A stretch of DNA of 64,000 nt, taken from the NCBI GenBank assembly GCA_003024785.1, contig PUQB01000140.1:344090-408089 (forward strand). The letters are read 5' to 3'. The position numbers and the translations under genes are program-made. The notes under the pieces are model-generated. The model did not search any database. It saw only the letters and a list, made by a program, of their open reading frames with translations, and was not told where the DNA came from. Numbering within the stretch: position 1 is the first letter of the stretch; each line of letters opens with the position of its first letter. This DNA is from Selaginella tamariscina (lineage: Eukaryota; Streptophyta; Lycopodiopsida; Selaginellales; Selaginellaceae). Below are positions 553 through 37,258 of the stretch, piece by piece.

Positions 553-753
553 AGTGACGAATAGTTGTAAATAAGTGTAACATAAGGCATTTTTGTATAT
601 TTCGTTTATATTTGTACAGAAAATAAATTCTCAAGGATTAATGAAGCTTTTAATTCAAACATGGGTCACACATTAACAAGGTAAATAATATACCTTGATA
701 ATTATAAGGTCAGCTAATTATCATTTTGCAGATGTAATGAAACAGTTGAGAAC

Positions 754-2009
754 ATGGATTTTCAACATTGCCATGAGGTGAGAGAGGGGTTTGGCGAAAA
801 TTTCTTGTGCCACATGTCAGAATGACAGAGTTCATGCAGGAAATGGATAATAATGCAACTCAAAACATCGTTACCATGGGGACCACTTCAGTTTTTTCAT
901 CACCATTTCTATTGGCTTCCATCCGAAATCACTTTCTTCAGCGCCTGCAATATCTGAATCTTGTAAGGATGATGTACAATTAAATGATAAAGAGATAGGC
1001 AACGATATAGTGTCAACAGATAAATGTGAAAGGGAGCAAACAAGTGAGTTGCAAAGTATTCAAGAGGCAACGCTACCCCATGTTACCTATGGCCATATTT
1101 GTTGTTGGATGTTAATGGTGTTCTGCTTCATCGACAAAGGCCCGAGGATAGGAAAAAGGAAATCAAACAAGGAGATTTCATTCCTTGTCATGGTAAATTT
1201 CAATATGATATTATTTTTCGTCCAGGGTTGAACCGTCTCTTTCAAAAGCTTAAGGAGATGGGTACACTTGTGGGGATTTGGTCATGCATACAGATTCACA
1301 ACTTGACACCGCTGCTGAATTTGCTTAAAAACATTGTAGTGTTGCAGAAGAGGTGATTCGTAAAGATTGGATTTTTGACTAGCGAATGTGTTATAAACCT
1401 CTCGAATTTCACAATATAGGAAAGGAAAGCAAGCCATACTTCTTCAAGAATGAAAGATTAATTGGGCTTCATAGGGAGATCAGTCACTCAAGGATAATGA
1501 AGAATGCACATATCTTAGTGGTAACGACTCTCCTCAGAAGGCTATGCTCAACCAAAACATTGATTGTATTCATCCAATCACTTTCAATCCATATTCTGAT
1601 ACTGATATTATGGATGAGCTAGTGAATTACTTGAATACGTGTCTCAGAAAGAAGAATTTCGAAAACTTTTATGAGCAGTATCCACCGTATCAAACATTTC
1701 CTGAAGCTTTTTTTCTCATGATTTTGAGTTTTATAAAATGAAGGATAGCAACCGGGCGCTTTATAATATTATTCTTAAGGAACGTCATTCTTTAGACAAG
1801 CCTTTATGCAGACCTGGTTTATTACATCTTATGTATTAACAAGGATGGCAACTTCCAATTGCATTCGTGAGAGTGTAAGGTGGTGGCAACAACATCAAGA
1901 TATTGACCAAAATGATTCGATTAATCCGGAGAGTGATGATTTAGACAAAATGAGGAAATTTCTCTGTATGGTTAGGAAGAAAGTATTTATAAATAAATTA
2001 ACATGTTGA
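754..2009 (+). pseudogene. FCP1-like HAD phosphatase, copy A, frame-disrupted
   Basis: The sequence parallels the longer-framed copy at 32,420-33,653. Exon 1 (754-777) encodes MDFQHCHE, followed by a short intron ending at 828 and a long second exon. The HAD/FCP1 (NLI-interacting factor) signature LLDVNGVL is at about 1,102-1,125, followed by the conserved FRPGL segment and a Trp-rich C-terminal part (VRWWQQHQD). Several small indels and one stop split it into at least five overlapping frames, so it is either a decaying duplicate or affected by consensus errors. FCP1-like proteins dephosphorylate Ser/Thr, but the second Asp of the DxD catalytic motif is Asn here, a change also seen in a group of plant HAD proteins. 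Family call is firm, function is inferred. Confidence 0.65.
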
Positions 2010-4971
2010 TAAGGAAATGATTTCATTTGTAATTATGTTTGATAATATTTTTTAATTATTGTAAACTATTTTTAGAACGAAGAATAATATAAATATTCTA
2101 AGATATTTTAGGAATATTCCTTACTAAGTAAGGTTATTGAAGGATTAATTTATTAGTTAATTAATATTTAAGGCTTAATTACATATTAATTAAATAATTA
2201 ATTAATAATTAAAACTTAAGTATTAATTAGTAATTTACTTTATATTCCCATTTTCACATATCATGCCCACTTTAGTTACAACGTGCATACAAGTTACATA
2301 TGTGTCTAAACACATGTTTGCCTCAAAATTTGTGACTAGGTTTTGTGACATCATTTCGCTAGGGCTTGTCACCATTATGGTTTCCTTAATATTAAGGGTT
2401 TCCTATAGCATTGGGTTTTCCATCGTTGATTTATTGATTGGGGTTTCTTTTAATATACCATTTGGGTCTCTTAATTTTGTCATTGGGTTGTCATAATCTC
2501 GTCATGGAGGTGTCTAATTGGATTTTTCGCCATCGATGGTTTGGTAAATTTCACCATTGGGGTTTGTTATCTCGTATTGATTACTTTAGTAGTTTTTTGT
2601 TGCACTTCCACAATTACATCAACTCCATAGTGGAGCAAAAGGTAAATATTGTTCCATTATCTTAGGATATAGCTCAATTTCTAGTAGAAGCATGGTAAAA
2701 AACATCTCGATCTATGGAAAATTTGAATATTCCTTCCCGCGTGCGAGATTTGTTGATCCGGTGATGCTTATTTTTCAAAATGAGAATAATCTCATTCAAA
2801 AATATATTTTTTTGTTAACACGAAGAAATCTTCTTTTTGGTTGAAAAAAAAATATTTTAAAGAACCAGATGCTTCTTGTTCGAGACAACATCTAGGACAT
2901 TGGTAACTATCAAACGAGATGCTTTTTTATTCAAATTTTATTATTAAACCAATGTTACTATCAGAATACTGGAAACAATATGTGATTTAGAATAATTGGC
3001 ATGGTATTCTACATTCTTATAGAATGAAATGTTTCTTGTTAATTATCTGATCCTGGGAATAACACATGATTTAGGGAATGAGGTTCAAAATGATAACCAT
3101 TTTTCCCATGTTTATGTTACCGAGAATGCGATTGTTGTTTACATATTAATAAACACATTAATTATTTTGAACAAGATGCTTCTGGTCGGAATTTTAGAAA
3201 TTTCGATATTAAAAGTTTGTATTTAATCTAATCTATATTTTAAACATATGCAATTCATATGTATTTTGTTTGCATTTTCCTTTTGAATAATGAAATGATT
3301 CTCGTTTAGTAATTCTTTTACTAGGAGTCAATGGTAATTTCTTTGACATGCATTATTAGTCATGCGATAAGTCCATTTTCACAATAATAATAATAAAGAG
3401 ATGCATCTCATTCTTACATTTAAATGATTCAATTTTGTCACACAGACTGCTTTATTTCATATTTTCATCGTGAGGTAAGATTTATCATGTTTCTTACCTT
3501 AGGTTATACAACTCATGTCGTATTAGTTGCCATAAAATTTGTGTGAAGTCTCTAGTCGTTTATAAACACTCATGCATGTAGATTATTATCATTTGCACAA
3601 TCCAAATCTAAAAAATTAATTATTTTTGCCTTCTATAAATATGACTCATCTTCCAAAAGTAAATTGCATAACTTTATTTATTATTAATTTATTTTATTTT
3701 AAATTTATATACAAAGTATATTAACATTAAAAACCATAACCCAAGAACCACAATAATTCATTTAAATTTATAAAAGTGTATATGCAATCTTTTATAAATT
3801 TATATTTTCTAATTTTTATTTTAAATAATGAAAAGGTAAAAAATAATTATGTATATGAAAATATGAGTAATAAATATAATTATGAATTGATTTATAAATT
3901 ATGTTTATTTTAAAATGCAAATGTATATAAAACATAGTAAAAGTCTAAACTCTGCATTGTCGAGGAAATACTAGTTTATCATATATAAAAGTGACATGCT
4001 TTATTAAAACATATTCACTAGTAGAGCTAGTACACTTTGTAGTTTGTTCAATTAGAATAAAGTCTAGACTTTCATTAACTTTTATAAACATATGCATTTA
4101 ATAATTAATATAATTAATATATTAACTAATAATAAAGATAATACTAGTATATTCATATTCCAACATTAATAATTTTTAACATTTGTTTGTTTAAAATAAA
4201 GCTACTAGATATAAAGTTATAAAAGATTATATATACACTTTTATAAATTGAAATGAAATATTATAGTTCTTGTTTTATGATTTTTTAATGTTAATATCAT
4301 AAAATTAAAATTAAAAAATAATTATCAAAGTAAAGTTATGTAATTTACAGAAAGATTAGTCATACTTACATCTGGGGGGTTCACTATTAATATAAGTATA
4401 ACCTAAGGTTTAAAAACTACCCCACCTTATAAGGAGTAAACTATATATAGTGACCATGCACCTTATAAATATTTTCTTAAGAAAATATTTAAATGTAATA
4501 CCCGGTACCTTATATATTAGTAATATATTTAATAAAAACAACCCTATTCTTACTTATACACACACTTTTTCTTCCCTTTCCTAGATGTTGAACACTCTAA
4601 GATGAAGTCGTTGAATTGTTGCTTGCTATGATTTGTAAGAGCGTACTTATGAGTCTGAGGATGTAAGTCAATGGTGCAAGTCTTATAAGTTGTAGATATT
4701 CACCAACATGTTGTCTAGCAAGTCATATGTGTATCATGTAGTTCTAGCTTAATTAGTCTTACATTCATTGTAATATGCAAGGATGAACTCGATCTTTCCA
4801 GCTAGTAAATCTGTTAAGTCCAAAGATTCTATGCTTTCTCTCCAAACTCTTCCATTCTTGCTATGCATGCTTTTTTTTAAAAACATTTTCTTCAAACCAA
4901 CAAGCAATATTTGAGCCTATCCCAATGGTTTAGCAGCAGTCATGTGTCTGTCCCAATTGTAAGAGCAAAGC

Positions 4972-12200: not shown

Positions 12201-12429
12201 ATTTACTATACATAAGGTGAAAGCTCCATGTAAATGACATATTCAGTTAAATAAATAATCCAAACTTTTATTCTTTCATGAGTCGATTACTTAGTTAAGT
12301 AAATTGTATAATAAAAATTTTTTTAATTTAATTTCATGTTAGACTATTTACTGTAAAAAATTCTACCTATCTAACTTAGGTGTGACCAAATATGCAAATT
12401 GTAATTAAATTGGGCATGATATATGAAAA
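9206..12429. other. AT-rich intergenic DNA without a recognisable gene
   Basis: The stretch between the inverted repeat and the inverted phosphatase fragment is AT-rich with many short A/T runs. A less AT-rich island at about 10,227-10,741 carries open frames on both strands (97 residues minus, 67 plus), but neither resembles a known family and both lack a convincing exon context. A short local duplication (CATATCGGATCATA...GTCA) occurs at about 10,739-10,835. Confidence 0.5.
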
Positions 12430-14785: not shown

Positions 14786-16019
14786 AACACACACAACAAT
14801 GAAAACTTAGTACATCTCTATCATCTAGATAGCTTTTATTCATCCTTTTAGAGTTAATATAAAAGTATGTATAAGAAATATTCCATAGAATATATATTAC
14901 ATCAAAAATATTCTTGAAGAATATTCTTTATGCTTTTATCAACTAAATTAATTAATATAATAATTTTAACTTATAATGTTGAAAGAATAGAGGTAGTCTA
15001 CCATTATAAAATTATTTTTTTAAGTTTTTTAAGTTAAAAGTATATGTGGAGCTTATAAAGGGGATTGAATTAAGTCTTAAATATTTTTGTTTAATAAATA
15101 AATAATTGGAAGCATTGTTCCAATGAGTTAAAACAAGATATACAATAACAGTAAGTTTAACACATTAATAACATTATTTTTCAAGATTACTGTACACTTC
15201 AAAAGTTAACTCATAATAATCCTAAAGTTTATGTGAAGTTAACACAATTTTCTTTTAAATTAAGATATAAACTTGAGTATTTAAACATTATAATAAATAA
15301 TGAATATATAAGCCTCTTTGTGGTTGGTTGGTCATAAAATTTTAAAGGTATACGATGAAACAAAATAAATATTAATAGAAAGTGAATTAAACATACAAGT
15401 TAATCGTAGAAAGAGGTGTTTGGTAAGATAAAGTGAATAAAATGTACTTAAGATTCACAAAATATTTTCTCATAAATTGCTTAGTATATTTTTATATTTA
15501 CATATATTACTTTTAAAACATATATATATATTTTGTATATGATATTAAGAATGAAACAAAATAAAATAAGAGGTTACTCATTTTTTAATAATTTCCAATA
15601 GATTTTTATTTTCAAATTTGTTTAATGAAAATCAGGTGGGGTGATCAAAACTTAGCAAACAGACTTTTAAGGCATTTTTTAAAATATTTATGTAAAATTT
15701 AATTTAGTAATAATGAATAATATAAATTATTAATTTAATAATAATAATATAAATTATTAATTTAAGACTGTCAAAATCTTCTTAGTATTAATTGTGTTAT
15801 TGGGTTAGAGTGGGCACATTTGTAAGGCACCACTCTAATGGTGATAAGAGTTTAAGTCTATGACTTTAGGTTTGAGTTTACATTAATAAGGAATATATTT
15901 TATTTTTAGATATGATCAATTCTAAATTCGCACAAACTTAAAAACAAGAGAATTTGTACATAAATTTAAGTTTAACAAATGCTAAAAGCGTAAAAAAATA
16001 TTAAAGTAATAATATTAGG
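14786..16019. other. AT-rich intergenic DNA including one copy of a dispersed repeat
   Basis: About 14,868-15,160 is repeated in direct orientation at 19,082-19,345, with the shared stretch TTTTTGTTTAATAAATAAAT. A following piece (about 15,140-15,365) is similar to 33,950-34,080, with the shared stretch AACAGTAAGTTT. The rest is AT-rich with no recognisable coding sequence. Confidence 0.6.
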
Positions 16020-18960: not shown

Positions 18961-19081
18961 TTTAGAGAAGAAAAGGAAGAGCATGAAGGAAAATGGTTGG
19001 AAATAAGGGTGAAACAAAAGTGATAAAAGCAGAGGTGAAAGCAAATGAATGAAGTGGAATAAAAGTAAGAGGAATGGAAGA

Positions 19082-19345
19082 AAGAATATATATTACAATA
19101 TAATATAAAGAATATTATTTATGTTTTATTAATTAAATTAATTAATAAATAATTTTAACTTATAATGTTGAATATCAAATTATTTTTTTATTTTTTTTTA
19201 AGGTCTTTAAGATAAAAGTATATGTTGAAACTTATAAATTAAGTTTTAAATATTTTTGTTTAATAAATAAATAATTCGAAGCATTTCTGTAAGTCCTTTT
19301 ACTACCATAAAATGTTCAATGAGTAAAAACAAGATATATGCAAGT
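19082..19345. repeat. Second copy of a dispersed AT-rich repeat
   Basis: It matches 14,868-15,160 in direct orientation with moderate divergence. The pair brackets the retrotransposon remnant, but the copies do not have LTR-like ends and are separated from the element by unrelated sequence. An independent repeat family is the more likely explanation. Confidence 0.55.
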
Positions 19346-19982
19346 TGTAACTAAATGGGCATGGCTATAGTCCCATTTCCTAATAATTAGCAATTTTAGC
19401 TATTTAATTAGCATTTTCTAATATTAAAGGAATATTCTTTAGAATATATGTTTGAAAAGAGAATATTCTTTAGAATATTCTATTTTGTATTCTACCCTTT
19501 AATAAATTATAGCATTCATTGAACAAAAATTAATAACATTATAAAAGTAGAATGTATTAAATTATATAATATATTGCCTAATATAACAATTAAGGAAGAG
19601 CATAAGAGGTACATTATATAAATATTGATGTTGTTATTAAAATATTAATATTTAAATATAACATTATTAATTAAAAATTTGTAGTAGTAATAATATAATA
19701 TAAAATCCTATAATAATATAGTCAATCTTCCATATCATTTTTTAAATTTATATAGTTAAGTATACAATTTGGTACTATTATTAAAGAGTTTATAATAATT
19801 ATGAATATTAAATATATGATATTTTATAATTTTGTAATTGCTTTAAGCTTCAGAAAACATACATTCCCTTGCAGTTTTGTTAATCGTGACTTTATCAACG
19901 CTTCTTGACATCCACCCATATCGAATGGATTTAACATTTATAAAACATGCTGGGTCTTTTTGATTGGGAGACCATGTTTTCT
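19346..19982. other. AT-rich spacer
   Basis: Very AT-rich DNA with several GAATATTCT-type short repeats (about 19,430-19,490). The part next to the DUF7869-type gene (19,840-19,982) is somewhat less AT-rich and could be its 3' UTR. Nothing else is recognised. Confidence 0.5.
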
Positions 19983-22971
19983 CTAGGCATCCATTATATC
20001 TTTCGCTCTCCTTCTCGTGTCGCCTTTTTTGTGGTTTGAACCATGCAACCTTAACAATACTTTTTTTGTGATTACTTCAGGTGTGTCGATAATTTGACCC
20101 ATCCAAATAGGCTGATTATATGACGCATCTGGAGTAATGAGAACCATCATTAGTTTTTGAAGATCCTTGCAGCAATCAAAGTATGCTTTAGGTTTTTGGT
20201 TCCTTTGTCCAACAAAGTGTGGGGTTTGCACTTCCACATCACTACTGGCTTCTATGTCGTCTATGCTCAGTGATGTCATTTCAATCTCCTCTCGCCACCT
20301 TGTTTTAGGCCAGAAAGGGTGTTGCAATTCTGTACTTGTGACAGTAGGCCCTTCCAACTCTCGAACAACAGTCTCCCAATAGTTGACCACATGCTTATAT
20401 AGTTCTGAGTAACCAGTTGCCTTATCAGAATTCTTTGGCATCGATTTTTGAACCCATGCCACATATTTTTTGATGCCATCAATAATAACCTCTTGTTCCT
20501 TGAGCTGGGCACTCAATGGAATAGGGTCTGGTTGTCCTTCTGGGAGAAGTGGCTTTCCATCCTCTCCACTTTTGAAGAGCATTAAGCCCTCTTTCGGTAA
20601 CCACTCCTGCTCTGATGGCCGTAACTTGTACTGCATAATAGGTATACCATCTCGTATGGAGAAAAAGAATTGTAGCGGCACAAGGTGACCAACTAAAGAA
20701 TCACTCCCTTCTTTTATATACTCCTTGAGAAATTTTTTGAAGTCTGGCACCTCAGTCACAAGCAAAGCACAACTTTTTTTGGAGATGCAATTTTCAAAAA
20801 GATTCATCATATGCGGTAAGGTAAGTGCACTTGTCCTTTTTGTAGAGTTGGAGACCTTGCTGAAGAACGCATCAATATCTTCATGAGTGTGACCAACCAT
20901 AAGGAAACTGAGCGTGATTGTTTCAAACACACCTTTGGCAACAAGCATTGACAAGTATGCTAGCACATATCTAGAAAATAAAAGTAAGTATGAGCTTGAG
21001 AAACCCTTAAGTAAAATGATTTACCTATTTTTGTTCTCGCCTGCACAATTATCCATCTGTAAAAGCAAATGACGAGGAAGCTTATTTGATGTTGAGGACA
21101 CATGTACACTATTTGAGCTAGATCCCTCCACTGAACCAGAACTCTCAACAGGGCCATCTTTTTTGTGCAGGCTGTTGACAATGCCTCTCATATTCCCAAG
21201 TAGCCTCAAGTGCAGATGTGTTCATGAGAGCATTATGTAAAGGTTGAAGGTGTTGTTTCTTCACTTTGAGATCACTGATAGGACTTGTCTGTGAGTGGGC
21301 TTCAAGGTTTCTGAAACACATGGCTAACGACCCAATAGTGAAATTGGAGTCGCTAGACCAATGTGGAAGTGAAAAGTGTCCATATGACTCACAACCGTGT
21401 CCATGTGTTAGCACACCTGTCAATGAAATCGGAAGTTTCATGACATTTCCAAGGCACTTTGGTGTTGCAAAGAGCTTTGGAATGCTGGTCTTTGAATGAT
21501 CCATCTTGTCATGGATCAAGCACAGGTACTCTGATGGGCGTGACACAGAAAGCATGCGGTGTGCATAGTACTGAGACCGGCAAGTTTGTTGTGCAATCAT
21601 GTGGGCCTCCATCTTCCTTTGAATGGTAGTGATCTCCACCAAGGTTTTTGCACAAGCCTCTGCAGCCTTCAATGATGTACAAGTGTCACACTTAGAAAAG
21701 CTAGAGTGTTTTGCAATCTCCACATCCTTAAAATGAGTATTCCATATGTTGTTGAAGGTACCAGTGCAGATTGCTTGGAGCCCCATCAAACTGAGGCACT
21801 TGTTCACATGTTCACACAGTTTCAATTGAGTGTAGATTGAAGGCAAAACCTTGAGATTTTCCCTGACCCCTGCATTTGTGGTTCGGCATTTGTGAGGCAT
21901 CCTGTCTGCATTTGCTTCCACAAAAGCCTTGAGTATCTCTATGGCTGCCATGATGTGAGAGCGGGTTTTGACCAAGCGAGTGTTCCCATGAACTGAGGTT
22001 CGCGCTCCATCTAGCCACTCATCCCTCCGACGGTAGAACGTGGTCTTTGGGATCCCGTATATACTGTACCAAGCTTTGAAGCAGATGGCCACCTTATTAA
22101 ATACCATGGATGTACTCTGATAACCTGTGTCCGAGGCCATTCCATCAATACACCCAGTTAGTGCAGCATATACAAACTCATGCCTTTGCTTTTGGGTGAG
22201 CATACGAAAGACATGTCTACATTGGGTAATTTCATTCCGGTCTGCCATCTGACAACACTTCTTCTTGCAACAGTCAATCGTGGAAATGCTCGTAACACTT
22301 TCGGAAGATGTAGGATCCATCTTTACCCTCTTGCTGAAACTTGCAGGGGAAGATCTACAACCCATGAATCGCCTTTTTCTTACAATAGGACCAATGCAAG
22401 GAACCTCTTCAAATATGAGTTGTTCTTCCGGGTTGTTATTATTGAAATCCAACCCAGAATATGTTGAACCATCTTGCCGTCTTAATTCAGATGTTCGCCA
22501 CCTCACGAGGGATCCAGGATACAATGTGCCATTAGGTGAAACCTCTGTCACAACTACACCCACGAAGTCGGACCCTAGTTTCTCTTCTGACACTGCTTCC
22601 ATTGGATTTATAGCTGTGATGATGCCTCTTCCGACTTCAATCTCACGAAGAAAGAGAATCACCTCATCCATCACAGCAGGCAAGCCATCATCTGGTAAAC
22701 TCGTGCTACTATTTGTTTGTGACTCTGCATATTCTGTGTCAGCCTTGACTTCATCCAAATTCCACAATACAGGAGAACCCTCCTCAAATTCCATTCCCAG
22801 AACCTCAACATGCTTGTAAATGGTGTTCACCCATACGTACACACAAGATCCTTGGGCAATATTGTGACATGATGCATTATTATCTCGAACTTCCACAGTT
22901 CCAGTGCCAACTATCTCGTTGTTCCGAAGAAGACATACTTTATCTCCAGTATTAAACATATTGTCCTGCAC
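19983..22971 (-). CDS. DUF7869-type transposase-like protein (RNase H-like fold) with an N-terminal BAH-like region
   Basis: Two large minus-strand exons (22,971 to about 21,020 and 20,966 to 19,983) flank a short intron. Exon 1 starts with a region resembling a BAH domain (FNTGDKVCLLRNNE...), then a Cys-rich segment (CCKKKCCQ), a possible helix-turn-helix part (YGIPKTTFYRRRDEW), a Cys-containing segment and the acidic motif IHDKMDHSK. Later come LQMDNCAGENKNR and VGHTHEDIDAFFS, the conserved core of DUF7869, arranged like the D...D...D/E catalytic residues of RNase H-fold transposases. A one-base shift near 21,200 separates the first and second parts. The first Met overlaps a good splice acceptor (TGTGCAG before GACAATATG), so the true start may lie in an upstream exon. 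Function is inferred; terminal inverted repeats were not found. Confidence 0.6.
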
Positions 22972-23113
22972 ATAAATAATTGTATTATTTATGATATCTG
23001 TTTATGCAATATTTCTAAGAAATCTGAATTACGGTTACTTAATAATATGCATATGCAATAATACATAATTATGTTTAGAGATAATATCTCATGTTTGATT
23101 AATACAACTGATG

Positions 23114-23742
23114 GGCGGGATTAATCCCGCCCACGAATCCCTCCGACGAGGAACGGTCGGCGGGATTAATCCCGCCGCCGACTCAACCCCTTCGGAGAGA
23201 GTCGGGATTAATCCCGCCTTGGACTCCCTCCGACAAGGAAGAGCCGGCGGGATTAATCCCGCCGCCTCTTCCTCCTCGGGGGAGTGGCGGGATTAATCCG
23301 CCGACTCTCCCCGAGGAGGAGGGCGGGATTAATCCCGCCGACTCTTCCTGTCGGAGAGGAGTCCGGCGGGATTAATCCCGCCCACAATTCTTACGACGGG
23401 AATGGGTGGCGGGATTAAACCCGCACATAACTCTCTCCAAAACTATGATTTCAAAGAGATCTCGGGATAAATCCTGTCCCCAAATCCTTAAAACAGGAAG
23501 TGGTGGCGAGATTAATCCCGCCACCCCTTCCCTGCCTCCTAAAATGGTTGGCGGGATTAATCCCGCCGACAACTCTTTCTAATAAATTCTGGTAACTCTT
23601 CATCAGTTGAGAAGGTTATCGGCGGGATTAATCCCGCCACTCTTTTTCAGTGGCGGAGAAGCATTGCCCGAGAGATGGTGGCGGGATTAATCCCGCCACC
23701 TCTTCGAAGAGGCGAAAAAGAAATGGCCGGATTAATCCGCCG
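23114..23742. repeat. Palindrome array 1 (GGCGGGATTAATCCCGCC, about 14 units)
   Basis: Perfect or near-perfect copies of the 18-bp palindrome start at 23,114, 23,159, 23,201, 23,246, 23,286, 23,322, 23,365, 23,408, 23,505, 23,550, 23,621, 23,680 and 23,726, with a degenerate one near 23,461. Start-to-start distances are mostly 36-59 bp. The spacers are related to each other (CTC(C)GACGAGGA-like) but not identical. The array lies directly upstream of the minus-strand DUF7869-type gene and may sit in its first intron. GC content contrasts sharply with the AT-rich surroundings. Confidence 0.9.
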
Positions 23743-23907
23743 CCCCGGTTAACCTAGAATATTAAGTTAAAAGGATATTTAAACGGGATAAATCCCTAAC
23801 GGAATATATTATAATCCTAATGCATTCCTAAACCCCTAAATTGTAATTTTAAGAGAGAATGTAAGAGAGTGAATCTTTATAAGTATTTTTAAATTTGTTT
23901 ATAATAC

Positions 23908-24096
23908 TTACTTGTAAACAGCACTGAAGGCGCCGTGCTTTCCTATAAAGAATAGCACCCAATTTAATCTCGCTCCTGAGATGATCACTATGAAGAAAAA
24001 AGAAGATCTAAAGAGTGAAAAATACAGAAATGAAGAAACCCTTGCCGGAGAAAGAACCAGATCTGAATTTGAGTGGGAAATTAAATGCATTTTCAA
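23908..24096 (-). other. Possible upstream exon of the DUF7869-type gene
   Basis: On the minus strand this stretch ends in GTTTACAA followed by GTAAGTATT, a near-perfect donor site, and the DUF7869-type exon at 22,967 starts just after a good acceptor. If these are joined, the intron would be about 950 bp and would contain the whole palindrome array 1. The open frame here (62 residues) is hydrophobic in the middle but not recognised, so the exon may be untranslated. No transcript evidence is available. Confidence 0.3.
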
Positions 24097-24179
24097 ATTT
24101 ACATGTCAGACCGACAATACATATGTCAGAAATTCAAATTTTTTAAAAAGAACAAAAATAAAATTTAAGATGAGTTGAC

Positions 24180-25320
24180 ACAAATATCCGACACTCTGAC
24201 ATATATACTCTCCAGTTCCAATGAGTATTTTAAAATTGCATTTAATGTTATTCAAGTGATTCAAGCTGTTTAATATTACGAAATTTTAGACTATATTCTA
24301 CATTCTTAGTATTCAAGTATATTTATATTATATATATATATATATATATATACTTATACAATAAATAAATTGATATATTATTATGTATCATTTAAAATAT
24401 ATTCATAGTCTGTTTATTATTATTATTTTCTTAATTACTCGAGTATTTAGTTTTCATTTCCTAGTATCAATGGGATATTCTTTAATATTTTATTAATATT
24501 TGAAGAATATTCTAATATTAAACCTGATTATCATAATTAAATTAGTCTTGTTCTTAATTATTGCAGTAATTATTCTACATTTGTATATATTAATGGGATT
24601 TTCTCAATTAATTTGTTATTATTTCAAGAATATTCATGTGTTAAACCTTATTATCAATATTAAATTAATACACACTATGAACATATTTTAAATTATACAT
24701 AATAATACATCATTTTATCTAATATATAGTCATTATAGTTTTAAATATATATTAATATCATTTCCTTAATTACTTGAGTAATTAATCTTCTTTATATTAA
24801 TGGGATATTCTTTATTATTTTCTTATTATTCCAAGAATATTCCAATATTAAACATGATTATGATAATTAATTTAGTTAATTATTTGAGTACTTAATTTAC
24901 ATTTGTATATATTAATGGGATTTTCTCAATTAATTTCTTATTATTTCAATGTTAAACCTTTTTATCAATATTAAATTAATATATATTATTAAAACTATAT
25001 ATGGCTATATATTAGATAAAATCATATATTATTATGTATAATTTAAAATATGTTCATAGTGTGTTTATTAATATTATTTTCTTAATTATTCGATGTTTGT
25101 TTTGCACACATATATAAACACAATCATAAATTTACACACGCATTACAAGAACTTACAAAAACACATATGCACACACATGCACAACCCTAAACCAAACTGA
25201 AGAAATATGTTGCTTCTTTATTGAAAACATCATGTTCAACGCATGTATGATATATGTACTCAATCTGTGTGTATGTAACACATTGAATTTACATGTGTAA
25301 TATTTATATTAAGCTTGTTG
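24180..25320. other. AT-rich spacer with local repeats
   Basis: AT-rich DNA without genes. Variants of ATTAATGGGATATTCTTTA/ATTAATGGGATTTTCTCAATTAATT recur at about 24,467, 24,590, 24,798 and 24,913, together with TTTCAAGAATATTC-like stretches. The spacing (about 120-210 bp) suggests an old tandem array. Confidence 0.5.
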
Positions 25321-25325
25321 GGAGC

Positions 25326-25860
25326 AAACCCTAAACCCTAAACCCTAAACCCTGTGTATACATGTGTGTACAAAAATAATTTTTCAACACTCTCTCTTCA
25401 CACCATGCATGATCCATCCTAAACCCTAAACCCTAATATGTAACACAATTTACTCATGTAATATGTATGTATGTCTGTGTGTATACACGTGTGTATGTAT
25501 ATATGTGTACTCTGTATGTATATATGTGTACTTTCTGTCTTCTCTCATACATACACACCATGCATGATCCATGTTAATATGTACTGTCTCTCTTCTCTCA
25601 AACATACACACCATGCATGATCTATAATATGTACTCGGTCTCTCTAATATTATGTACTAATATGTATGTATGTCTGTGTGTATACACACCATGCATGATC
25701 CATAATATGTACTGTCTCTCTTCTCTCATATACTATGTATGTATATCTGTGTATAATATGTGTAAGTAACACTCTTTTCTCTCATACATACACACCATGC
25801 ATGATCCATCCTAAATCCAAAACCCTAAACCCTAAACCCTAAACCCATGTAATATGTATG
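25326..25860. repeat. Interstitial telomere-type repeats within a CATGCATGATCC minisatellite
   Basis: Short runs of AAACCCT occur at about 25,326-25,353 (four units), 25,420-25,436 (two units) and 25,820-25,846 (about four units). Between and around them a longer motif recurs: CACACCATGCATGATCCAT followed by sequence such as TAATATGTACTGTCTCTCTTCTCTC, at about 25,401, 25,557, 25,607, 25,686 and 25,792. The CCCTAAA unit is the plant-type telomere sequence. The mixed arrangement suggests the telomere units were amplified as part of a local minisatellite. Confidence 0.75.
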
Positions 25861-26179
25861 TATGTCTGTGTGTATACACGTGTGTATGTATATATTATGT
25901 ATATAATATTGCAATGTGTATGTATGTATTGATACACATGAAACTTTAACACTCTCGTGGACACACACATGTTAAATCCCTGCATGATTTATATTTTTGG
26001 GGTGTATGTGATACACCCACGCACACGCGCGCTAATAATATAATGAAAGAATATTCGTTTAGGGCGAATCTATATTTTATTCTTTTTAGGGTTTAAGTAT
26101 ATTCTCAGGAATATTCTATTAGGGTTAATATATATATTTAATTCCTTTAGGGTTTAGGTATATTCTTAGGGTTTCAAGA

Positions 26180-27159
26180 GGCGGCGGCTGTGCACACAGG
26201 TGAGATCTGTGTGTGTGTGTGTGTGTGTGTGTTATGTATGTATGTATATATGTATAGGAGTGTGCGTATAATTTATTTATTAGTTTTATCTCTCGCACAC
26301 ACACGCACACTCCTGTGTATGTATATGTGTGTGTGGGTGTGTGTTTGTTTATCTGTATGATTTTATTTGTTTCGCTCACACACGCATACACACGATATAC
26401 ATATACACATATATATATACCTATATACATATATACATACATATATTATGTGTACCAGTATCTAAATTTTTTTTTTTTGATCTATCTCTCCCACACACGC
26501 ACACTGCTTTCACACACCACACACACACACACATATATATATTATATTATATAATATATCATGCATATTAACAAATAGTATACAACACTAGTTTATATAT
26601 ATGCTTATATATTCATATGGGTTATATATCTATATACACACTATATATATGTGTGTGTTATCTGTATAATTTTATTTATTTATTAGTTTTATCTCTCGCA
26701 CACACACGCACACTCCTGTGTATGTATATGTGTGTGTGTGTGTTTGTTTATCTGTATGATTTTATTTGTTTCGCTCACACATGCATACAACAATATATAT
26801 ACACATATATATACCTATACATATAATATACAACACAGTTTATATATATGCTTATATATTCACAGACTCTTCTCTTTTTCTATGGATATATATCTATATA
26901 CACACATATATATGTGTGTGTTTATCTGTATAATTTTATTTATTTATTAGTTTTATCTTTCGCACACCACGCACACTCCTGTGTATATATATGTGTGTGT
27001 GTGTGTTTGTTTATCTGTATGTTTTATTTGTTTCGCTCACACGCATACACGATATACATATACACACTATATATACCTATGTACACACATATTATGTGTA
27101 CCAGTACTGTATAATTTTATTTATTTATCTATCTCTTGCACACACACGTACACTCCTAT

Positions 27160-27216
<57 letters not shown>

Positions 27217-27280
27217 TATATATGTGTGTATTTTTATCTGTATAATTTTTTTATTTATTAATTTTATCTCTCGCACACAC
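26180..27280. repeat. Dense TG/CA and TA microsatellite tract with internal duplications
   Basis: The tract is composed of (TG)n, (CA)n, (TA)n and (TACA)n runs. A composite of about 300 bp, including TATCTGTATGATTTTATTTGTTTCGCTCACAC-like sequence and TTTTATCTCTCGCACACAC, recurs at about 26,270, 26,670, 26,930 and 27,240. Many open frames cross it on both strands, but they are composed of repeated Cys/Val/Thr/His codons and are not credible proteins. Confidence 0.75.
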
Positions 27281-27295
27281 GCTAAGCCCTCGAGC

Positions 27296-28781
27296 GGCGG
27301 GATTAATCCCGCCGCTATAGGTTTATGGCCTCGGCGGCGGGATTAATCCCGCCGCTATATGGTTGGGCCATGGCGGCGGGATTAATCCCGCCGCCGAGGC
27401 CCCTCACGCAGGCCATGGGCGGCGGGATTAATCCGCGCTCTTTGGTTTGTCCTAGAGCGGCGGGATTAATTTCGCCGCCCATAGCCTGCGTGAAGGCCTC
27501 GGCGGCGGGATTAATCCCGCCGCTCACCCATGCCCTGCACGGAATGCGGCGGGATTTATCTCGCCGGCAATGGCCTGTGTGAAGGCCCTAATGGGCGGAT
27601 TAATCCCGCCGGATTCGCGCAGGCATTTACAGGGGATGGGCGGCGGGATTAATCCCGCCGCTCATGAGGCTAACCGAAAAGCATGCATGAAAACCTGCAC
27701 GGAAGGCTAACCGAAGAGCCTACATGACATGTCCTGCGCGTAAGGCGGCGGAATTAATCCCGCCGCCCAGGGATTCACGCAGGACATGAACGGCGGGATT
27801 AATCCGGCCCCACGCTCATGCCCTCCGCCGCTCAGGCACTTCCGCAGGATATAAGCGGCGGGATTAATCCCGCCCCCACCCATCCCTGTTCAAAATGCCG
27901 CAGCCAATATATATGTGTGAGCGCATGATTTACGAGAGGGCGGCGGGATTAGTCTCTCCGAACCTTCATTACCCGATGGCGGGATTAATCCCGCCACCCT
28001 TCTTTTTTTCCTCCATTGGTATGTTGAATCAATCCCGACTAACTCTGTCTGAGACGGAGAAGGTTTACAAAATACCAATGGAGGGAACTGAGAAGGGTGG
28101 TGGGATTAAATTCACCATCCCTTACATGGTGGGCGGGATTAATCCCGCCGCGTACGCATGCCCTGCGCGAATCGGGCGGGATTTATCCGCCGCCATTGGC
28201 CTGCCTGAAGGGCCTAGGCAGCGGGATTAATCCCGCCGGACGCCAATTCCCTGCGCAAAATCGGGCGGGATTTATCCGCCGCCATTGGCCTGCCTGAAGT
28301 GCCTAGGCAGCGGGATTAATCACGCCCGATTCCGCGCCGGGAATTGGCGTCCGGCGGGATTAATCCCGCCGCATAGGGATCGAGTGAAGGCCCTGGGCGG
28401 CGGGATTAATCCGCCGAGTCTTCAATGCCTGTTGGAGGAATGAATCCCGCCACCCTTCGCTTTTTCTCCATTGTGTGAGTCGGACCAATCCTAAACTTCT
28501 ATCTGAGACGTAAAAGGTTTTCAACATACCAATGAGAGAAATTGGGAAGGGTGGGAAAATTCATTTAACCATCACTTACATGGTGGGCGAGATTAATCCC
28601 ACCCCCTTTCTGGAGTTACTGAAGGGGTGTGAGAATAAATCCTGCCCAGTTCTCTCTGAGACCGAGAGAAGGGTGGCAAGATTAATTCCGCACTCCCGTT
28701 CAAGGCCTCCAGAAAGGTGGCGAGATTAATCCCGCCCACTCTTTCAGGAGGCATTGAAGGGGTGGCGAGATTAATCCCGCC
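27296..28781. repeat. Palindrome array 2 (GGCGGGATTAATCCCGCC, about 27-30 units)
   Basis: Perfect or near-perfect palindromes start at 27,296, 27,336, 27,375, 27,459, 27,504, 27,594, 27,642, 27,747, 27,792, 27,857, 27,978, 28,132, 28,175, 28,220, 28,264, 28,309, 28,363, 28,399, 28,586, 28,719 and 28,764, with degenerate ones between. Spacers carry recurring phrases such as GGCCTGCGTGAAGGCC and CCATGCCCTGC. From about 27,975 some spacers resemble each other in a longer pattern (TTTTTCTCCATTG ... GAGACGGAGAAGG). The array ends about 300 bp before the first recognisable exon of the ParB-like gene at 29,080 and is immediately preceded by the microsatellite tract. Confidence 0.9.
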
Positions 28782-29079
28782 GCACCTTCCATGTGAATAT
28801 ATATGTGTATTAGTATATATAAGTTGCATATCTCATTTATTTACTTTTATCATCATATTATAATATTTCGAGAAAAGCTAGGAATCTATGTAAAACTGTC
28901 CAGAGCTCACATTTTGGTGGTTCTAAACGAATGTTATCTTTCTTTTGCACTAGCACAAATGTGAGTTTCGGACAATTAATTACGTCTACTTCTCTCTGTG
29001 TATTATTTTTGTATATTCGGGTTTATACAAGGTGTGTGCGTTTTATATGATTTGTATTCATAGTGTATTATTTTGCAGA

Positions 29080-32000
29080 AGGACGATTTGATCAAACAAG
29101 GAGATCGAGTCATTAGTATGAGTCGTCGTAAAAATTCTGGGTAAGAATTAAAACAAAATCTGTTTACTCGGATACTTGAACTAATCATTTTTGTATTCAG
29201 ATGTGGAATTGAGGTGACATTAAAGACAAGAGCAGGAGAAGAGATGGGCAGGGGGATTCTGGAATCAACTTGGCCATATTTTAAGATAAATGGGAAGCGC
29301 ATTGGAGCAACCATGGTTGCTGTCAAATTAACCTCTGTCACATCTCATGGACAAGCAAAACAATGGAAAGTAGATTCGCTAGTCAAGCACCCGAAAGCAG
29401 GCTGCGAACCCAGATTGGACGATGCTCGACATATGCCTTGTTCCATCCAATGTCACGTTCTCGGATCCAGAGGTCGTCAGTTACAACATTAATTTCGGGT
29501 GGTTTTGTCGACTTGTGGATAATGACGTTCACGTGTTCACTAATGATGTTGACCTTGGAGTTCTTCTTCAACTCAACGAAAGCCCATCTATGGAGGGGAT
29601 CCATCTGGATGTCTACTTCGAAGATCTTCAGACTCATCGAGTAGGTGTATTGTCAGGAGATATTGCTTCACAATACAGAAAATCAGCAAGTGGAGCAATC
29701 TTCCCTCTTCACATTGAAGAAGAACACAGCGACATCATAAGGAGATTGAGAGGGTGGCTCGGTCTCAGGTTCTCTACAGATCACGTTCAATTTGCTTAGG
29801 AAGCTTTGGGAGCTGGAAGAGTGTGCCGAGAACACTAGAACAGCTGCAGTCGGGGATCACACATGTTGATTCGGATCGCAAAAGAAAATCATCAATCGTT
29901 TTGTCAGCTGCACCTGTGGCATCTCATGCTGCAATAAGTCACAAGGAAATGATGTTGGATGATAAGATTTATCCTTGTAGGGTTAAATATTGCAGCGTCA
30001 ACCCAAACTTCAATTACAGGCCACTCAACCAGGAACGTGTAGCTGAGCTCATGGAGAAGATGAAGGACGACAATTCTTATACCGTTCCACATAATGCTGT
30101 TTTGTGTCCATACTATGAAAGAAGGAAGGGCGCTGACAAAGTCTGGATCACAACACCAGAACAACTCATGAAGATTCAGACGGAGAATAAAAATCTATCA
30201 AGTACTACATCATTAGTGGCCAGCACACAATAACGGCAGCCCAACGACTTCTCGAGAACACAACAAAGGAACGATGGCAACAAAACTTTCCGAGCATACC
30301 CGTGAGAAGCTGACAAAAAGATCGGCGTTTTTAGCTAAGCCGAATCTCACAATCGAGCAGTACCATAAGTTATCGGCGGAATGGGACGCTGCCGACACCA
30401 ACCACTACAACAGCAAAATATGGGAGAAGTTTAAACACACGCGAGCCGTGTGGGAATCTCTTCAGCGACCACAAAGAGCTACCGCAGGGAATACACAATC
30501 TGCGGAATACCGGGTAAGCAAATTGTTTGGGCGGGATTTATCTCGCCGGTATATTAATCTGTCTTTTTCCTCAGAGAGTTGAAGAAATTGCAGCAGTTGA
30601 TTTTGCCCAGGTGGGCGGGAAGGAAACATCCTTTCTGATGATGTTGATTTCTTGCCCCGAAGATAGGATCTTTGCCAAATGGTTGGGGATTATGGAATCC
30701 TTTTCAAAAGGAACACTGAAGAAGAAGCAGACAAGTGAAGGGGAGCCCTCAGAAAAGTCTGCAAAGAAACCCAGTAAGACGCCGAAGGCTAAGTCTGTTC
30801 AATCTACAAAGGATGTAGACAACGATTTCAAGCTCACATGGTTGAAGCCTTTAAATGGAACAACGATGGAGGAGATGGAAGTCTTGGCTGATTTGGTGAT
30901 CGATGGCAAACTACAAATTAATAACAGCAGCCCAACCTCTCCTTTTCATCTCAAGGCAATGGAGTTGAAGACGGTCAGGCATTTCAAGGAGTGGTTGGGA
31001 ATACACTGCCACAAACTGGGTTGGACCTCGACTTCAACATATGAAGAGGTCAGCAAATATTTGCATGTGACGAACGATGATATGCTTGTCGAATGGGTGA
31101 ACCAATCGGAAGATCTAGGCAAGAATCTATTGCACGCCAACGCCAAAAAGGAGAACATTGGGATGACGCCTTCTCTTATGGCAGTCCTTCAGCAGCGGAG
31201 AACCGAATTGAACCTTATAAAGGAGGATGCTACGAATCACGACAAGCCCTACAGATGTTTGTTGTTAGATTCGGAGACTTTATGGGGTAACATCACTGCT
31301 TGTAGGAAACCGTTTCAATTGTTCGTGATGGATCGGCGGGTGTCAAAAAATCTTTCGACAGATAGGGCACTAGAGGATCTGGTGGAGAAACTTAGCCGTG
31401 CAAGCATATACATAGAAGGTATTTATTATTGAATTCATGCTTGCGCTCTTCACTGATACCTACTTTTTCAGGTATTTATTTCTTGATTCTTGCTCATGTC
31501 ACCGATACTTTTGCCTTCGCCTTCGCCAAGAAGAATAGACATCGTTGGACAGGATTTTATATGAACGATGCTAATCCCAAGTGCATTGATACCGTTGTTC
31601 ACTTGGTTGTTAGGAATGCGCCAAACAATTTCAAGCTTCCAAATGACTGGCCAGGCATCTGTTTGCACTCCAACGGCCCTGAACCTCCATCCGATACACC
31701 GATAGGTATGAGTGACGTATTCGGCAATGTACGTTATCCAAACATTACAAGTCAAGCGGCACGGAGCATCGTCAACTTGATCAGGGGTCCTCACAGTGAT
31801 GCGTGGGTTTTTGACTACTGCACTAGGGGGTCCGTCTTGAAGGAGTGTTACCTTCGGCATACATGTGTGTTTGCCGTTGAAAAGGATAAGACCATGGTTG
31901 AGGACCTGAACAAGTGGATAGATTGGGTCTCAACTGAGTACCCCAACGATCCATAAAGGCGTATTTGAGAAAGTTCCCTCCAGATAAGTGCGATAGCTCT

Positions 32001-32204
32001 GAAGGTGAATCTGGTTCAATCTCGGAGTCTGAGAACGAACTTCAATCAGATATTAGACCGGAAGTTATCTCGAGGAGTACAGAACATTCGCACACTCCAG
32101 GACCCATGGAAACATCAATAGAAGATGCAGAAGATCTTGAACCATCTCACAAGCGGCTTAGACCTTCTTCGCCTCATCAGAAGGTAATAGCGAAGAAGAA
32201 TTGA
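29080..32204 (+). CDS. ParB-like/degenerate N4/N6-methyltransferase-like protein, copy B
   Basis: Several exons, with introns at about 29,141-29,200, 30,513-30,575 and 31,419-31,471, encode an N-terminal region of unknown type, then a ParB/sulfiredoxin-like segment (from LNQERVAELMEKMKDDN near 30,024 to YYIISGQHTITAAQRLLE near 30,200-30,253), a Lys-rich linker, and a region laid out like a beta-class DNA methyltransferase. There the motif IV position reads FQLFVMDRRV (about 31,315-31,345) where active enzymes have DPPY, and the motif I-like segment VFDYCTRGSVLKE follows at about 31,808. The ParB motif usually ends GxxR; here it is GQHT. Both active sites look lost, so a DNA-binding or structural role is more likely. 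An acidic tail ends the protein. The frame is interrupted a few times. The first exon is uncertain. Confidence 0.55.
30529..30550. repeat. Single copy of the GGCGGGAT...CCGCC palindrome in an intron of the ParB-like gene
   Basis: GGGCGGGATTTATCTCGCCGG is a slightly degenerate palindrome of the same family as arrays 1-3. It lies between a likely donor at about 30,513 and the acceptor before 30,575, so it is inside a 60-bp intron of the ParB-like gene. Confidence 0.75.
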
Positions 32205-33943
32205 TAATGAATTGATAGAGTGATGAATAGTTGTAAATGAGTGTAACATAAGGCATTTTTGTATATTTCTTTTATATTTGTACAGAAAATAAATTCTCAA
32301 GGATTAATGAAGCTTTTAGTTCAAACATGGGTCACACATTAACAAGGTAAATAATATACCTTGATAATTTTAAGGTCAGCTAATTATCATTTTGCAGATG
32401 TAATGAAATAATTGAGAACATGGATTTTCAGCATTGCCATGAGGTAAGAGAGGGGTTTGGCGACAATTTCTTGTGCCACATGTCAGAATGACAGAGTTCA
32501 TGCAGGAAATGGATAATAATGCAGCTCAAAACATCGTTACCATGGGGGCCACTTCAGTCATCATTTTTATTGGCTTCAGTTCCGAAATCAATTTCTTCAG
32601 CGCATGCAATATCTGAATCTTGTAAGGATGATGTACAATTAAATGATGAAGGGATAGGCAACGAGATAGTGGCAACGGATAAATGTGAAAGGGAGCAAAC
32701 AAGTGATTTGCAAAGTATTCAAGAGGCAACGCTATCTCATGTTACTCATGGCCATATTGTGTTGTTGGATGTCAATGGTGTTCTGCTTCATCGACAAAGG
32801 CCCGAGGATAGAAAAAAAAATCAAACAAGGAGATTTCATTCCTTGTCATGGTAAATTTCGATATGATATTATTTTTCGTCCAGGGTTGGATCGTCTCTTT
32901 CAAAAGCTTAAGGAGATGGGTGCGCTTGTGGGGATTTGGTCATGCATGCAGATTCATAACTTAACACCGCTGTTGAATTTACTTAAGAAACATTGTAGTG
33001 TTGCAGAAGAGGTGATTCGTAAAGATTGGATTTTTGACCAGCGAATGTGTCATAAACCTCTCGAATTTCACAATATAAGAAAGGAAAGCAAGCCATACTT
33101 CTTCAAGAATGAAAGAATAATTGGGACTCATGGGGAGATCAGTCGCTTAAGGATAATGAAGAATGCACAGATGTTAGTAGTAGACGACTCTCCTCAGAAG
33201 GCTATGCTCAACCAAAACATTGCTTGTATTCATCCAATCACTTTCGATCCATATTCTGATACCGATATCATGGATGAGCTAGTGAACTACTTGGATACGT
33301 GCCTCAGAAAGAAGAATCTCGAAAATTTTTGTGAGCAGTATCCACCGTATCATACATTTCCTGAAGCTTTTCTTTCTCGTGATATTGAATTTTATAAAAT
33401 GAAGGATAGCAACCGGGCGCTTTATAATATTATTCTTAAGGAACGTCAGTTTTTAGATGAGCCTTTATGCAGACCTTCTCTTATCACATCTTATGTATTA
33501 ACAAGGATGGCAACTCCCAATTGCATTCGTGAGAGTGTTAAGTGGTGGCAACAACATCAAGATATTGACCAAAATGATTTGATTAATCCGGAGAGTGATG
33601 ATTTAGACAAAATGAAAAGATTTCTTTGTATGATAGAAAGAAAGTATTTATAAAAAATTAACATGTTGATAAGAAAATGATTTCATTTGTAATTATGTTT
33701 GATAGTATTTCTTCATTATTGTAAACTATTTTTAGAATAATATGAATATTCTAAGATATTTTAGGAATATTCCTTACTAAGTAAGGTTATTGAAGGATTA
33801 ATTAATTAATTAATTAATATTTAAGGCTTAATTACATATTAATTAAATGATTAATTAATAATTAAAACTTAAGTATTAATTAGTTAATTTATTTTATATT
33901 CCCATTTTCACGTCATGCCACTTAAGTTACAACGTGCATATAT
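31670..33943 (+). repeat. Segmental duplicate of 1-2,290
   Basis: From CTCCAACGGCCCTGA at 31,670 (window base 1 in the other copy) to ACAACGTGCATA near 33,943, the sequence runs parallel to 1-2,290 with few substitutions and small indels. The true left edge of the duplication is beyond the window start. At the right edge copy A enters the giant inverted repeat and copy B enters other AT-rich DNA. Confidence 0.9.
32420..33653 (+). CDS. FCP1-like HAD phosphatase, copy B
   Basis: Exon 1 (32,420-32,443, MDFQHCHE) is preceded by a likely 5' UTR intron (32,346-32,398); exon 2 (32,495-33,653) completes the protein. Domains in order: a low-complexity N-terminal part, then the FCP1/NLI-interacting-factor phosphatase domain with LLDVNGVLLHRQRP (about 32,764), FRPGLDRLFQKL (about 32,878), LLKKHCS..., VVDDSPQKA (about 33,180) and a C-terminal WWQQHQD region. 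HAD phosphatases use the first Asp of DxD as nucleophile; the second is Asn here, as in a subset of plant proteins, so activity is uncertain. The frame shifts in an A run at 32,811-32,819, two bases shorter than in copy A. This is the best-preserved of three copies in the window and is paired with the ParB-like gene. Confidence 0.7.
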
Positions 33944-36612: not shown

Positions 36613-37077
36613 CCAAGGACTTGAGATGAAGTCATTGAATTGTTCCTTGCTATGATTTATAATAGCATACTTTTGAGTTTGAGGATGTAAGTCAGTGGTG
36701 CAAATTTATAAGGTTGTAGATATTCACCAACATGTTGTCTAACAAGTCATATATGTATTATGTAGTTCTAACTTCATTAGTCTTACATTCATTGTAATAT
36801 GTAAAGTTGAACTTGATCTCTCCAACTAATAAATCAAGATTCTTTGCTTTCTCTCCAAGCTCGTCCATTCTTGCTATGCATGCTTGTTTTTTAAAAACAT
36901 TTTCTTCAAATCAGCAAGCAATAGTTGAGCCTATCCCAATGGTTGTAGCAGCAATCATGTGTATGTCCCAATTGTAAGAGCAAAGCCTATACTTTACCCT
37001 TGTCAACCTGTCCTTTGACAAATAAGGATTGCTATTAAGTTGTGAAACCAGTGTTCCTTTGCAAACAACCTTGTCAC

Positions 37078-37258
37078 AGAGGGCCTGCGTGAAGGGCGGT
37101 GGATTAATCTCGCTGCCCATGGCTTGTGCAGAGGGCCTACGTGAAGGGCAGTGGGATTAATCTCGTCGCCCATGGCCTATGTGGAGGGCCTGCGTGAAGG
37201 GCGGTGAAATTAATCTCGCCGCCCATGGCCTATGCAGAGGGCATGCGTGAAGGGTGGA
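37078..37258. repeat. Palindrome array 3, inserted in the repeat arm
   Basis: Three and a half units of about 52 bp carry diverged palindromes (GGCGGTGGATTAATCTCGC, GGCAGTGGGATTAATCTCG, GGCGGTGAAATTAATCTCG) between CCTGCGTGAAGG and CCATGGCCTATG spacers that also occur in array 2. The left arm of the inverted repeat has no such sequence at the matching point (about 5,060-5,065), so the array was inserted after the arm was copied. Confidence 0.85.

Follow-up and report, generated by a model that had tools for sequence, protein, structure and literature searches.

Short sites associated with the element protein TnpA are reiterated in the subterminal regions of CACTA/En-Spm transposons, often in inverted orientation. 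The terminal inverted repeats (TIRs) of these elements begin with CACTA or CACTG and their target-site duplications (TSDs) comprise 3 bp; VANDAL and other Mutator-like elements have long TSDs of 9-11 bp, and Sola transposons have TSDs of 4 bp. Clustered GC-rich palindromes of alternating orientation are known from the bacterial repetitive extragenic palindromes and interspersed mosaic elements (REP/BIME), and in chloroplasts, small inversions at hairpin loops flip the spacer located between two inverted repeats. VANDAL elements of Arabidopsis contain VANC target repeats (PMC5735166, PMC10398659), and the VANC21 motif of VANDAL21 is reported to form tandem repeats in introns and in an upstream region, which differ between copies and are arrayed in a single orientation (PMC5735166). 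VANC-type proteins are described as having DUF1985/DUF287 domains, and the Sola superfamily is listed among the plant DNA transposons (PMC9033089). This study deals with a stretch of 64,000 nucleotides of the Selaginella tamariscina genome (contig PUQB01000140.1, positions 344,090 to 408,089; hereafter the window), in which a GC-rich palindrome of 18 bp is repeated in two arrays. Both arrays are internal modules of one family of TIR DNA transposons.

With up to three substitutions, 36 palindromes are found in the window, 35 of which lie inside the two arrays; the mean of shuffled sequences is 0.01. When indels are allowed, the number rises to 41 (14 in array 1 and 27 in array 2), compared with a mean of 1.2 and a maximum of 3 in ten trials with Markov sequences of the same composition, which agrees with the more than 40 copies reported in the original prediction. 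A unit of about 45 bp is formed by the 18-bp palindrome and a spacer of mostly 25-28 nt. The previously noted spacing of 36-71 bp is typical; however, it is incomplete, as start-to-start distances of 97, 105 and 154 bp are also present. The description of the arrays as GC-rich islands in AT-rich DNA was correct: their GC content is 0.56-0.57, compared with 0.27 between the arrays (24.0-27.2 kb).

The assignment to the TIR DNA transposons is based on ends that are shared by copies with unrelated flanks, the number of TIRs, the TSDs and an exact empty site. The left limit at 19,338 is common to the copies L061, L062, L064 and L070, the right limit at 33,939 is shared by copy L078 and by a further copy inside the window, and the flanks beyond both limits are unrelated. 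The element encodes a DUF7869 protein (gene A). Of 4,249 candidate DUF7869 loci, 150 were scored, and the ten with the best scores were fetched. All ten start to match exactly at 19338 and belong to the same transposon family; other DUF7869 families with other palindromes are not among them. Since these best-scoring loci share 95-99.6% identity with the window, the family was probably amplified recently. The termini are inverted repeats of 26-27 bp (ATGCAnGTTGTAACTAAArTGGGCATG), and a search of the assembly (300,702,823 bp, 1,391 contigs) with this pattern, minus its first base, with one extra N and up to two mismatches, yielded 4,103 places, whereas the control yielded none. Ten pairs of facing ends, which are 13.9-15.0 kb apart and were chosen among the TIR places listed, give 11 elements together with that of the window. 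ATGCA...TGCAT termini are present in 11 of 11 elements, of which only the outer A/T is independent evidence, as the ten pairs were chosen by a TGCA-containing pattern. A 4-bp TSD flanks six of the 11 elements (TAGA, CTAT, ATAA, TGGT, CGTT, ATAT), compared with 0 of 110 mismatched pairings. In one case, an element is nested in another element copy, and the flanks, joined with one ATAA, match the window element at 89 of 89 bases, thereby representing an exact empty site. Thus, the family has both inverted ends in many copies and a TSD of constant length (4 bp), as is characteristic of TIR DNA transposons. The arrays can therefore no longer be regarded as a free plant satellite or minisatellite, although a small array at 37,077 does lie free of the element.

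Array 1 is located in a putative 5' intron of gene A, and array 2 is located upstream of gene B, which is divergent to gene A. The 28-nt context of the putative intron donor is exact in nine of the 11 copies searched and has one change in the other two; the 23-nt acceptor context is exact in seven, has one change in two and was not found in two. Several copies carry both arrays at a distance of about 3.0-3.9 kb from each other, and the arrays of these copies retain their places beside the 5' ends of the genes. The outer array boundaries have the same sequence as those of the window in the two copies printed. Array 1 and array 2 are about 3.8 kb and 5.2 kb, respectively, away from the element ends.

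The count of the 18-mer in the whole assembly, which had been proposed as a check, revealed 46,888 places when up to one mismatch was allowed, whereas the control, the pattern read backwards, gave none. In a search with the palindrome shortened to 14 bp by omission of its outer four bases, 13,143 places have two such pieces at a distance of 24-30 nt. Divided by the 4,103 TIR ends, the count amounts to 22.9 palindromes per two ends, and the window element has 24 at the same threshold; the abundance of the palindrome is thus in keeping with the number of transposon copies. About 0.25 Mb was examined besides the window, most of which was selected for palindromes or element matches, and the sampled regions comprised eight selected for palindromes and 12 selected regardless of them. 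Two of these 12 regions hold palindromes, in both cases within element sequence, and three match the element over 12,009 of 100,614 bases, roughly 11.9%. As a rough figure, around 2,050 full-length elements would account for 10% of the genome.

Within arrays, the palindrome is much better conserved than the spacers, as had been predicted. In the window, the pairwise identity is 0.87-0.90 for palindromes and 0.52-0.53 for spacers of up to 35 nt, compared with 0.45-0.47 for shuffled spacers; the corresponding values for seven arrays of four copies are 0.88-0.96, 0.59-0.68 (in the better orientation) and 0.50-0.54. The palindromes remain 94% identical to their own consensus, whereas the spacers drop near chance. 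In array 1 of a second subfamily (subfamily II), different spacers have grown in plain tandem, and the palindrome is unchanged. Among 315 base pairs of 35 indel-free (18-nt) palindromes, 36 stem changes are one-sided and two are two-sided. As only one of the 38 changed base pairs is compensated, base pairing itself is not conserved. The AT core of the palindrome changes least (1.8%), and ATTAAT, which would form the loop, is more conserved than the stem. Uncompensated stems and a quiet AT core would fit a DNA-binding site better than a hairpin. An extension of the palindrome by covarying flanks was also considered and rejected, because only the first flanking base differs from shuffles made within the arrays (22 of 41 versus 15.7, p 0.018; longer flanks p 0.21-0.51).

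Based on the conservation of the palindrome within arrays, the quiet AT core, the uncompensated changes, the different spacers around the same palindrome in subfamily II and a location in a putative intron and an upstream region that corresponds to that of the VANC21 target repeats (PMC5735166), the arrays are rather likely to be cis-acting sites for a dimeric protein that is encoded by the element and acts on the element's own promoters. The palindrome would then constitute a two-fold-symmetric binding site, which is repeated for avidity, and the product of gene A or gene B would bind to it as a dimer and control or de-silence the promoters of the element, as VANC does on the target repeats of VANDAL. 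The recognition protein suggested in the original prediction is plausible. Selection would be confined to the source lineage that continues to transpose, and inserted copies would decay neutrally. Growth and turnover of the arrays would result from two processes, tandem duplication on the one hand and inversion or fold-back between palindromes on the other; the latter would flip the spacer, yet regenerate the palindrome. The spacer flips in 18 of 18 arrays tested, which are described below, are counted in favour of this reading as well.

Several observations weigh against this interpretation. Between copies of the window's subfamily (I-I), the ratio of palindrome to spacer substitutions is 1.13 (95% interval 0.76-1.65; 271 unit pairs), and within subfamily II (II-II) it is 5.4 (3.5-9.6; 43 unit pairs). 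Between the two subfamilies (I-II), the ratio is 0.78 (95% interval 0.64-0.98; 146 pairs), and the palindrome changes only somewhat more slowly. These ratios are derived from 10 sequences, with L060, L064, L075 and L078 left out, and the pairs share copies; the subfamilies were defined after the pairwise rates had been seen, and pairs required spacers that are at least 60% alike, which makes the spacers appear better kept. Indels do not enter the ratios; palindromes have fewer of them in the I-I and I-II comparisons and more in II-II. Thus, the better conservation of the palindrome holds within arrays and disappears between copies of the window's subfamily; the finding that the original prediction had named as speaking against itself, spacers that are as conserved as the palindrome throughout the genome, is seen in part, namely at homologous positions of this subfamily. 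As the palindrome is not slower than the spacer within subfamilies, any function must be a long-term one at the level of the lineage. Furthermore, a C-to-T mutation bias at G and C might likewise leave the AT core unchanged. A methylation scar was considered, as C-to-T transitions are most frequent at CHG (9.1%), followed by CHH (4.3%) and CG (3.0%); repeats of the same unit were counted many times in these values, and no inference is drawn from them. Neither gene A nor gene B has a confident DNA-binding domain, and gene B is without recognised relatives in a homologue search with its middle open reading frame (ORF) and in Pfam, NCBIfam, PHROGs, PADLOC and PDB. Five of the 11 paired ends show no TSD match, some of which perhaps belong to nested or rearranged elements. 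Finally, the VANC21 motifs reportedly all run in one orientation, whereas the palindromes described here are accompanied by flipping spacers.

The excess of palindrome conservation within arrays and the similar change of both parts between copies of the window's subfamily suggest that the inserted copies are without clear constraint, and that in the long term the source lineage has preserved the palindrome, but not the spacers. This provides an example of constraint that is visible within the arrays of a source lineage and absent between inserted copies.

The main alternative, which we consider doubtful, is that the arrays are passengers, i.e., a hairpin-prone minisatellite that expands through slippage, fold-back copying and tandem duplication and in which the palindrome is kept as the endpoint of rearrangements or conversion tracts. 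This explanation would account for the way the arrays rearrange, as spacers flip at palindromes. Rearrangement was analysed in 18 arrays with at least eight usable spacers each, which originate from 10 fetched sequences including the window and are not independent due to much shared history. In 18 of 18 arrays, the assignment of spacers in their best orientation exceeds 30 of 30 shuffled sets and is far above the head-to-tail assignment. Of 741 spacer pairs, 20 show strong similarity in direct and 25 in inverted orientation, compared with one in the shuffled set at about the same cut. In the window, inversion is clearest for the spacer at 28,327: it repeats the spacer at 28,238 in reverse orientation, and the spacers on either side of it keep their direction. 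The spacer orientation nearly alternates in array 1 of the window's subfamily, some arrays contain higher-order repeats of four units (lag-4), and the spacer ends are weakly complementary (e.g., 34 of 68 versus 26.3 for the first two bases, p 0.02), all of which is in line with passenger arrays. We infer that the flips arise by inversion or fold-back copying between adjacent palindromes. The rate of change between copies of a subfamily, which is not lower for the palindrome, also favours the passenger explanation. However, unconstrained palindromes should drift as the spacers do, instead of staying close to their consensus, and a conversion process confined to about 18 bp would be required. 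In addition, the arrays hold their positions beside the 5' ends of the genes in copies with both arrays.

The small array at 37,077 has been counted in favour of passenger arrays as well, since it was inserted without a clear TSD. It represents a polarised insertion: two paralogous segments lack the array at the same point. The identities between the segment and its paralogues are 92.7%, 86.1% and 87.7%, and the more distant paralogue serves as the outgroup. Neither a TIR nor a clear target duplication was found by eye at this insertion, so pieces of the array may also travel as filler DNA. Helitron ends were rejected for this insertion, as no suitable termini were seen by eye. A model of nested miniature inverted-repeat transposable elements, with duplication of TTAA or TA at the palindrome centre, was also rejected, since the arrays start and stop with whole palindromes and a lone palindrome is present at 30,530.

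In contrast to binding of a protein to the DNA, the arrays could yield a structured RNA with intronic or leader hairpins, which affect splicing or feed or mislead a small-RNA pathway. Array 1 lies within a putatively transcribed intron, each unit is palindromic and the spacer ends are weakly complementary; nevertheless, this possibility appears improbable, because the stem changes are uncompensated, the loop positions are better kept than the stem, the folding energy of 34 spacers is near that of shuffles (mean z about -0.2, lowest -2.6), and no Rfam match was obtained at gathering scores. It is very unlikely that the palindrome is a host satellite or independently mobile, similar to BIME or GC clusters, and is located in this region by chance. 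The polarised insertion outside the element at 37,077 would agree with such a palindrome, but array position and spacer order are common to copies of one transposon, as are the outer boundaries in the two copies printed. Moreover, the only palindromes in regions selected regardless of them lie in element sequence, and the palindrome count agrees with the TIR count.

Bacterial contamination or kinship to bacterial REP elements is hardly conceivable: the exact 18-mer is present in 49 bacterial contig stretches and one viral contig, but mostly as single hairpins with flanks that are unlike the spacers by eye and with at most four relaxed matches per stretch, and the window also contains Ty3/gypsy-type RNase H and integrase pieces as well as peroxidase and SNF2 exons. 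The resemblance to REP/BIME noted in the original prediction is thus retained for the flips of spacer orientation and dropped for kinship. In metagenome-assembled genomes of Bacteroidales/Prevotellaceae (L013, L021-L023, L026, L027, L033, L035, L037, L039, L049, L050), the 18-mer is part of a longer palindrome, which is found within about 80 bases of the contig end in 10 of 12 cases, beside a AATAGTCAAAAGTGTTGA-like sequence. There, it looks like the end of a multicopy bacterial element.

Table 1. Position of the transposon, its parts and related features in the window (a dot marks features without strand).
Feature	Position	Strand	Remarks
Complete TIR DNA transposon holding both arrays	19338..33939	.	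14,602 bp
Left TSD	19334..19337	.	ATAT
Right TSD	33940..33943	.	ATAT
Left TIR	19338..19363	+	ATGCAAGTTGTAACTAAATGGGCATG
Right TIR	33914..33939	-	84.6% identity to left TIR over 26 nt
Gene A, DUF7869 protein, candidate transposase	19983..23001	-	Pfam; motifs HDKMD, QMDNCAGENKN, GHTHEDID
Putative 5' intron of gene A, containing array 1	22966..23911	-	Predicted from sequence contexts
Array 1	23114..23741	.	14 palindromes (GGCGGGATTAATCCCGCC or variants); spacers almost alternate in orientation
Inter-array stretch	23742..27295	.	AT-rich DNA with microsatellites and (AAACCCT)n, preceded by a putative gene A 5' exon from 23,912 up
Array 2	27296..28781	.	27 palindromes; spacer family around CATGGCCTGCGTGAAGGCC, both orientations
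Gene B, orphan, putative exons	29079..31956	+	Exon boundaries by eye
Lone palindrome	30530..30547	.	Inside gene B, within a 61-nt intron predicted by eye
ORF with NLI-interacting-factor-like phosphatase domain (PF03031)	32670..33653	+	Pfam; element-borne
Second element copy, right part	1..2288	+	93% identical; TIR at 2262-2288
Empty paralogue of window insertion site	14887..15369	+	Match ~14,887-15,225
Degenerate array of three units, 53-bp unit	37077..37257	.	Units at 37,077-37,254; same type, outside element, polarised insertion in duplicated segment

The element carries three genes or ORFs (Table 1). The frame of gene A is broken near 21.1 kb in the window, and the same stretch is open in five other copies. 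Its homologues P0001-P0005 are 28-37% identical; HDKMD is common to the window and all five homologues, and DN...NKN and GHTHEDID are also present in the long homologues P0001 and P0002. The conservation of these acidic motifs, assessed by eye, makes the gene A product a candidate DDE-like transposase. No sequence relative in PDB was found with the gene A profile, and an NCBIfam scan of P0001 and P0002 gave nothing relevant. The N-terminus of P0001 matches the TNP1/En-Spm family PF03017 (E 6.6e-4) with 19.9 bits, which is below the curated cut-off of 21, and this match is not seen in P0002.

The three ORFs of gene B have no Pfam family at 0.001, and P0006, the N-terminal part of gene B, has one chance-level PH match at E 10. 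In copy L066, an open frame also runs through the lone palindrome of gene B. The product of gene B in this copy (L066:442-1875, minus strand) contains a ParB/sulfiredoxin-like stretch by eye (NPNFNYRPLNQERVAELMEKM ... INGQHTITAA). ParB proteins bind palindromic sites. The assignment of gene B to ParB/sulfiredoxin-like proteins, which relied on the by-eye motif in P0006, was rejected, since Pfam, NCBIfam, PHROGs, PADLOC and PDB gave no ParB match; a search of the same genome with the PF02195 profile gave no match up to E 10. The ORF at 32670-33653 has an NLI-interacting-factor/CTD-type phosphatase domain and is an unusual transposon passenger, for which neither a homologue search nor PDB revealed a relative.

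Some further features are found between the arrays, at the ends and in the surroundings of the transposon. Interstitial plant-type telomere repeats, (AAACCCT)n, are located inside the transposon between the arrays, at 25326-25353 and 25810-25846. The TIR core GTTGTAACTAAA at 19338-19363 and 33914-33939 also occurs within the replication-terminator (Ter/Tus) sites of Escherichia coli; this likeness is most likely a coincidence. A Ty3/gypsy-type element with repeats resembling long terminal repeats (LTRs) is located at 14887-19337, and the transposon sits in one LTR-like repeat. The empty paralogue of the insertion site probably represents the second LTR of this Ty3/gypsy element, into which the transposon inserted. 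A diverged older TIR with three mismatches is present at 12392-12418, beside a phosphatase-gene relic that is 75% identical; both are remains of an older related element.

Among the papers searched, none contained the 18-mer string or DUF7869, and the 12-bp core appeared in one, which is unrelated by title; no title or abstract start suggested this element. Compared with known systems, it shares single features with several of them. The spacers flip as in the small inversions of chloroplasts, but here the process concerns a nuclear tandem array with very many copies. Unlike REP/BIME, the arrays belong to a DNA transposon of a plant-like genome, and no array is present in the bacterial stretches examined. 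The TSD of 4 bp, the feature compared, is shared with Sola. Reiterated short sites for a protein of the element, as proposed here, are also typical of CACTA/En-Spm, and the sub-cut-off TNP1/En-Spm match in P0001 recalls this group; however, the TIR of the element is ATGCAnGTTGTAACT, the TSD has 4 bp and the arrays are not subterminal. The closest similarity is to VANDAL: a dense short tandem motif occupies noncoding parts of the element (introns and upstream regions), and its number varies between copies. VANDAL differs in the TSD, in the TIR and in the motif, which is a GC-rich 18-bp palindrome in the element described here. The latter encodes a DUF7869 protein without a match to a Mutator-like element model (gene A ORFs at E up to 0.001; P0001 and P0002 at E up to 1), and gene B has no VANC-type domain (three ORFs in Pfam at 0.001; only the N-terminal part P0006 to E 10). 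The element thus departs from VANDAL in its TSD, in its candidate transposase and in having no recognised VANC-type domain; by the tests made it is neither VANDAL nor CACTA.

An odd repeat thereby becomes a dissectable system, a large transposon family with reiterated palindromes beside both of its divergent genes. If a protein of the element binds the palindromes, this would be a second, independent case of self-recognition through a tandem motif as in VANDAL, and one could then test directly whether such arrays enable plant transposons to escape silencing. More tentatively, and by analogy, the family might represent a new DUF7869-based transposon lineage, in which a VANC-like self-recognition has evolved independently and a dimeric protein of the element, bound to tens of palindromic sites in its intron and promoter region, keeps the chromatin there open. 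With a palindromic site, inversion of spacers would reshuffle the array without loss of sites, and such VANC-like self-recognition, if true, may explain how the family came to occupy about a tenth of the genome.

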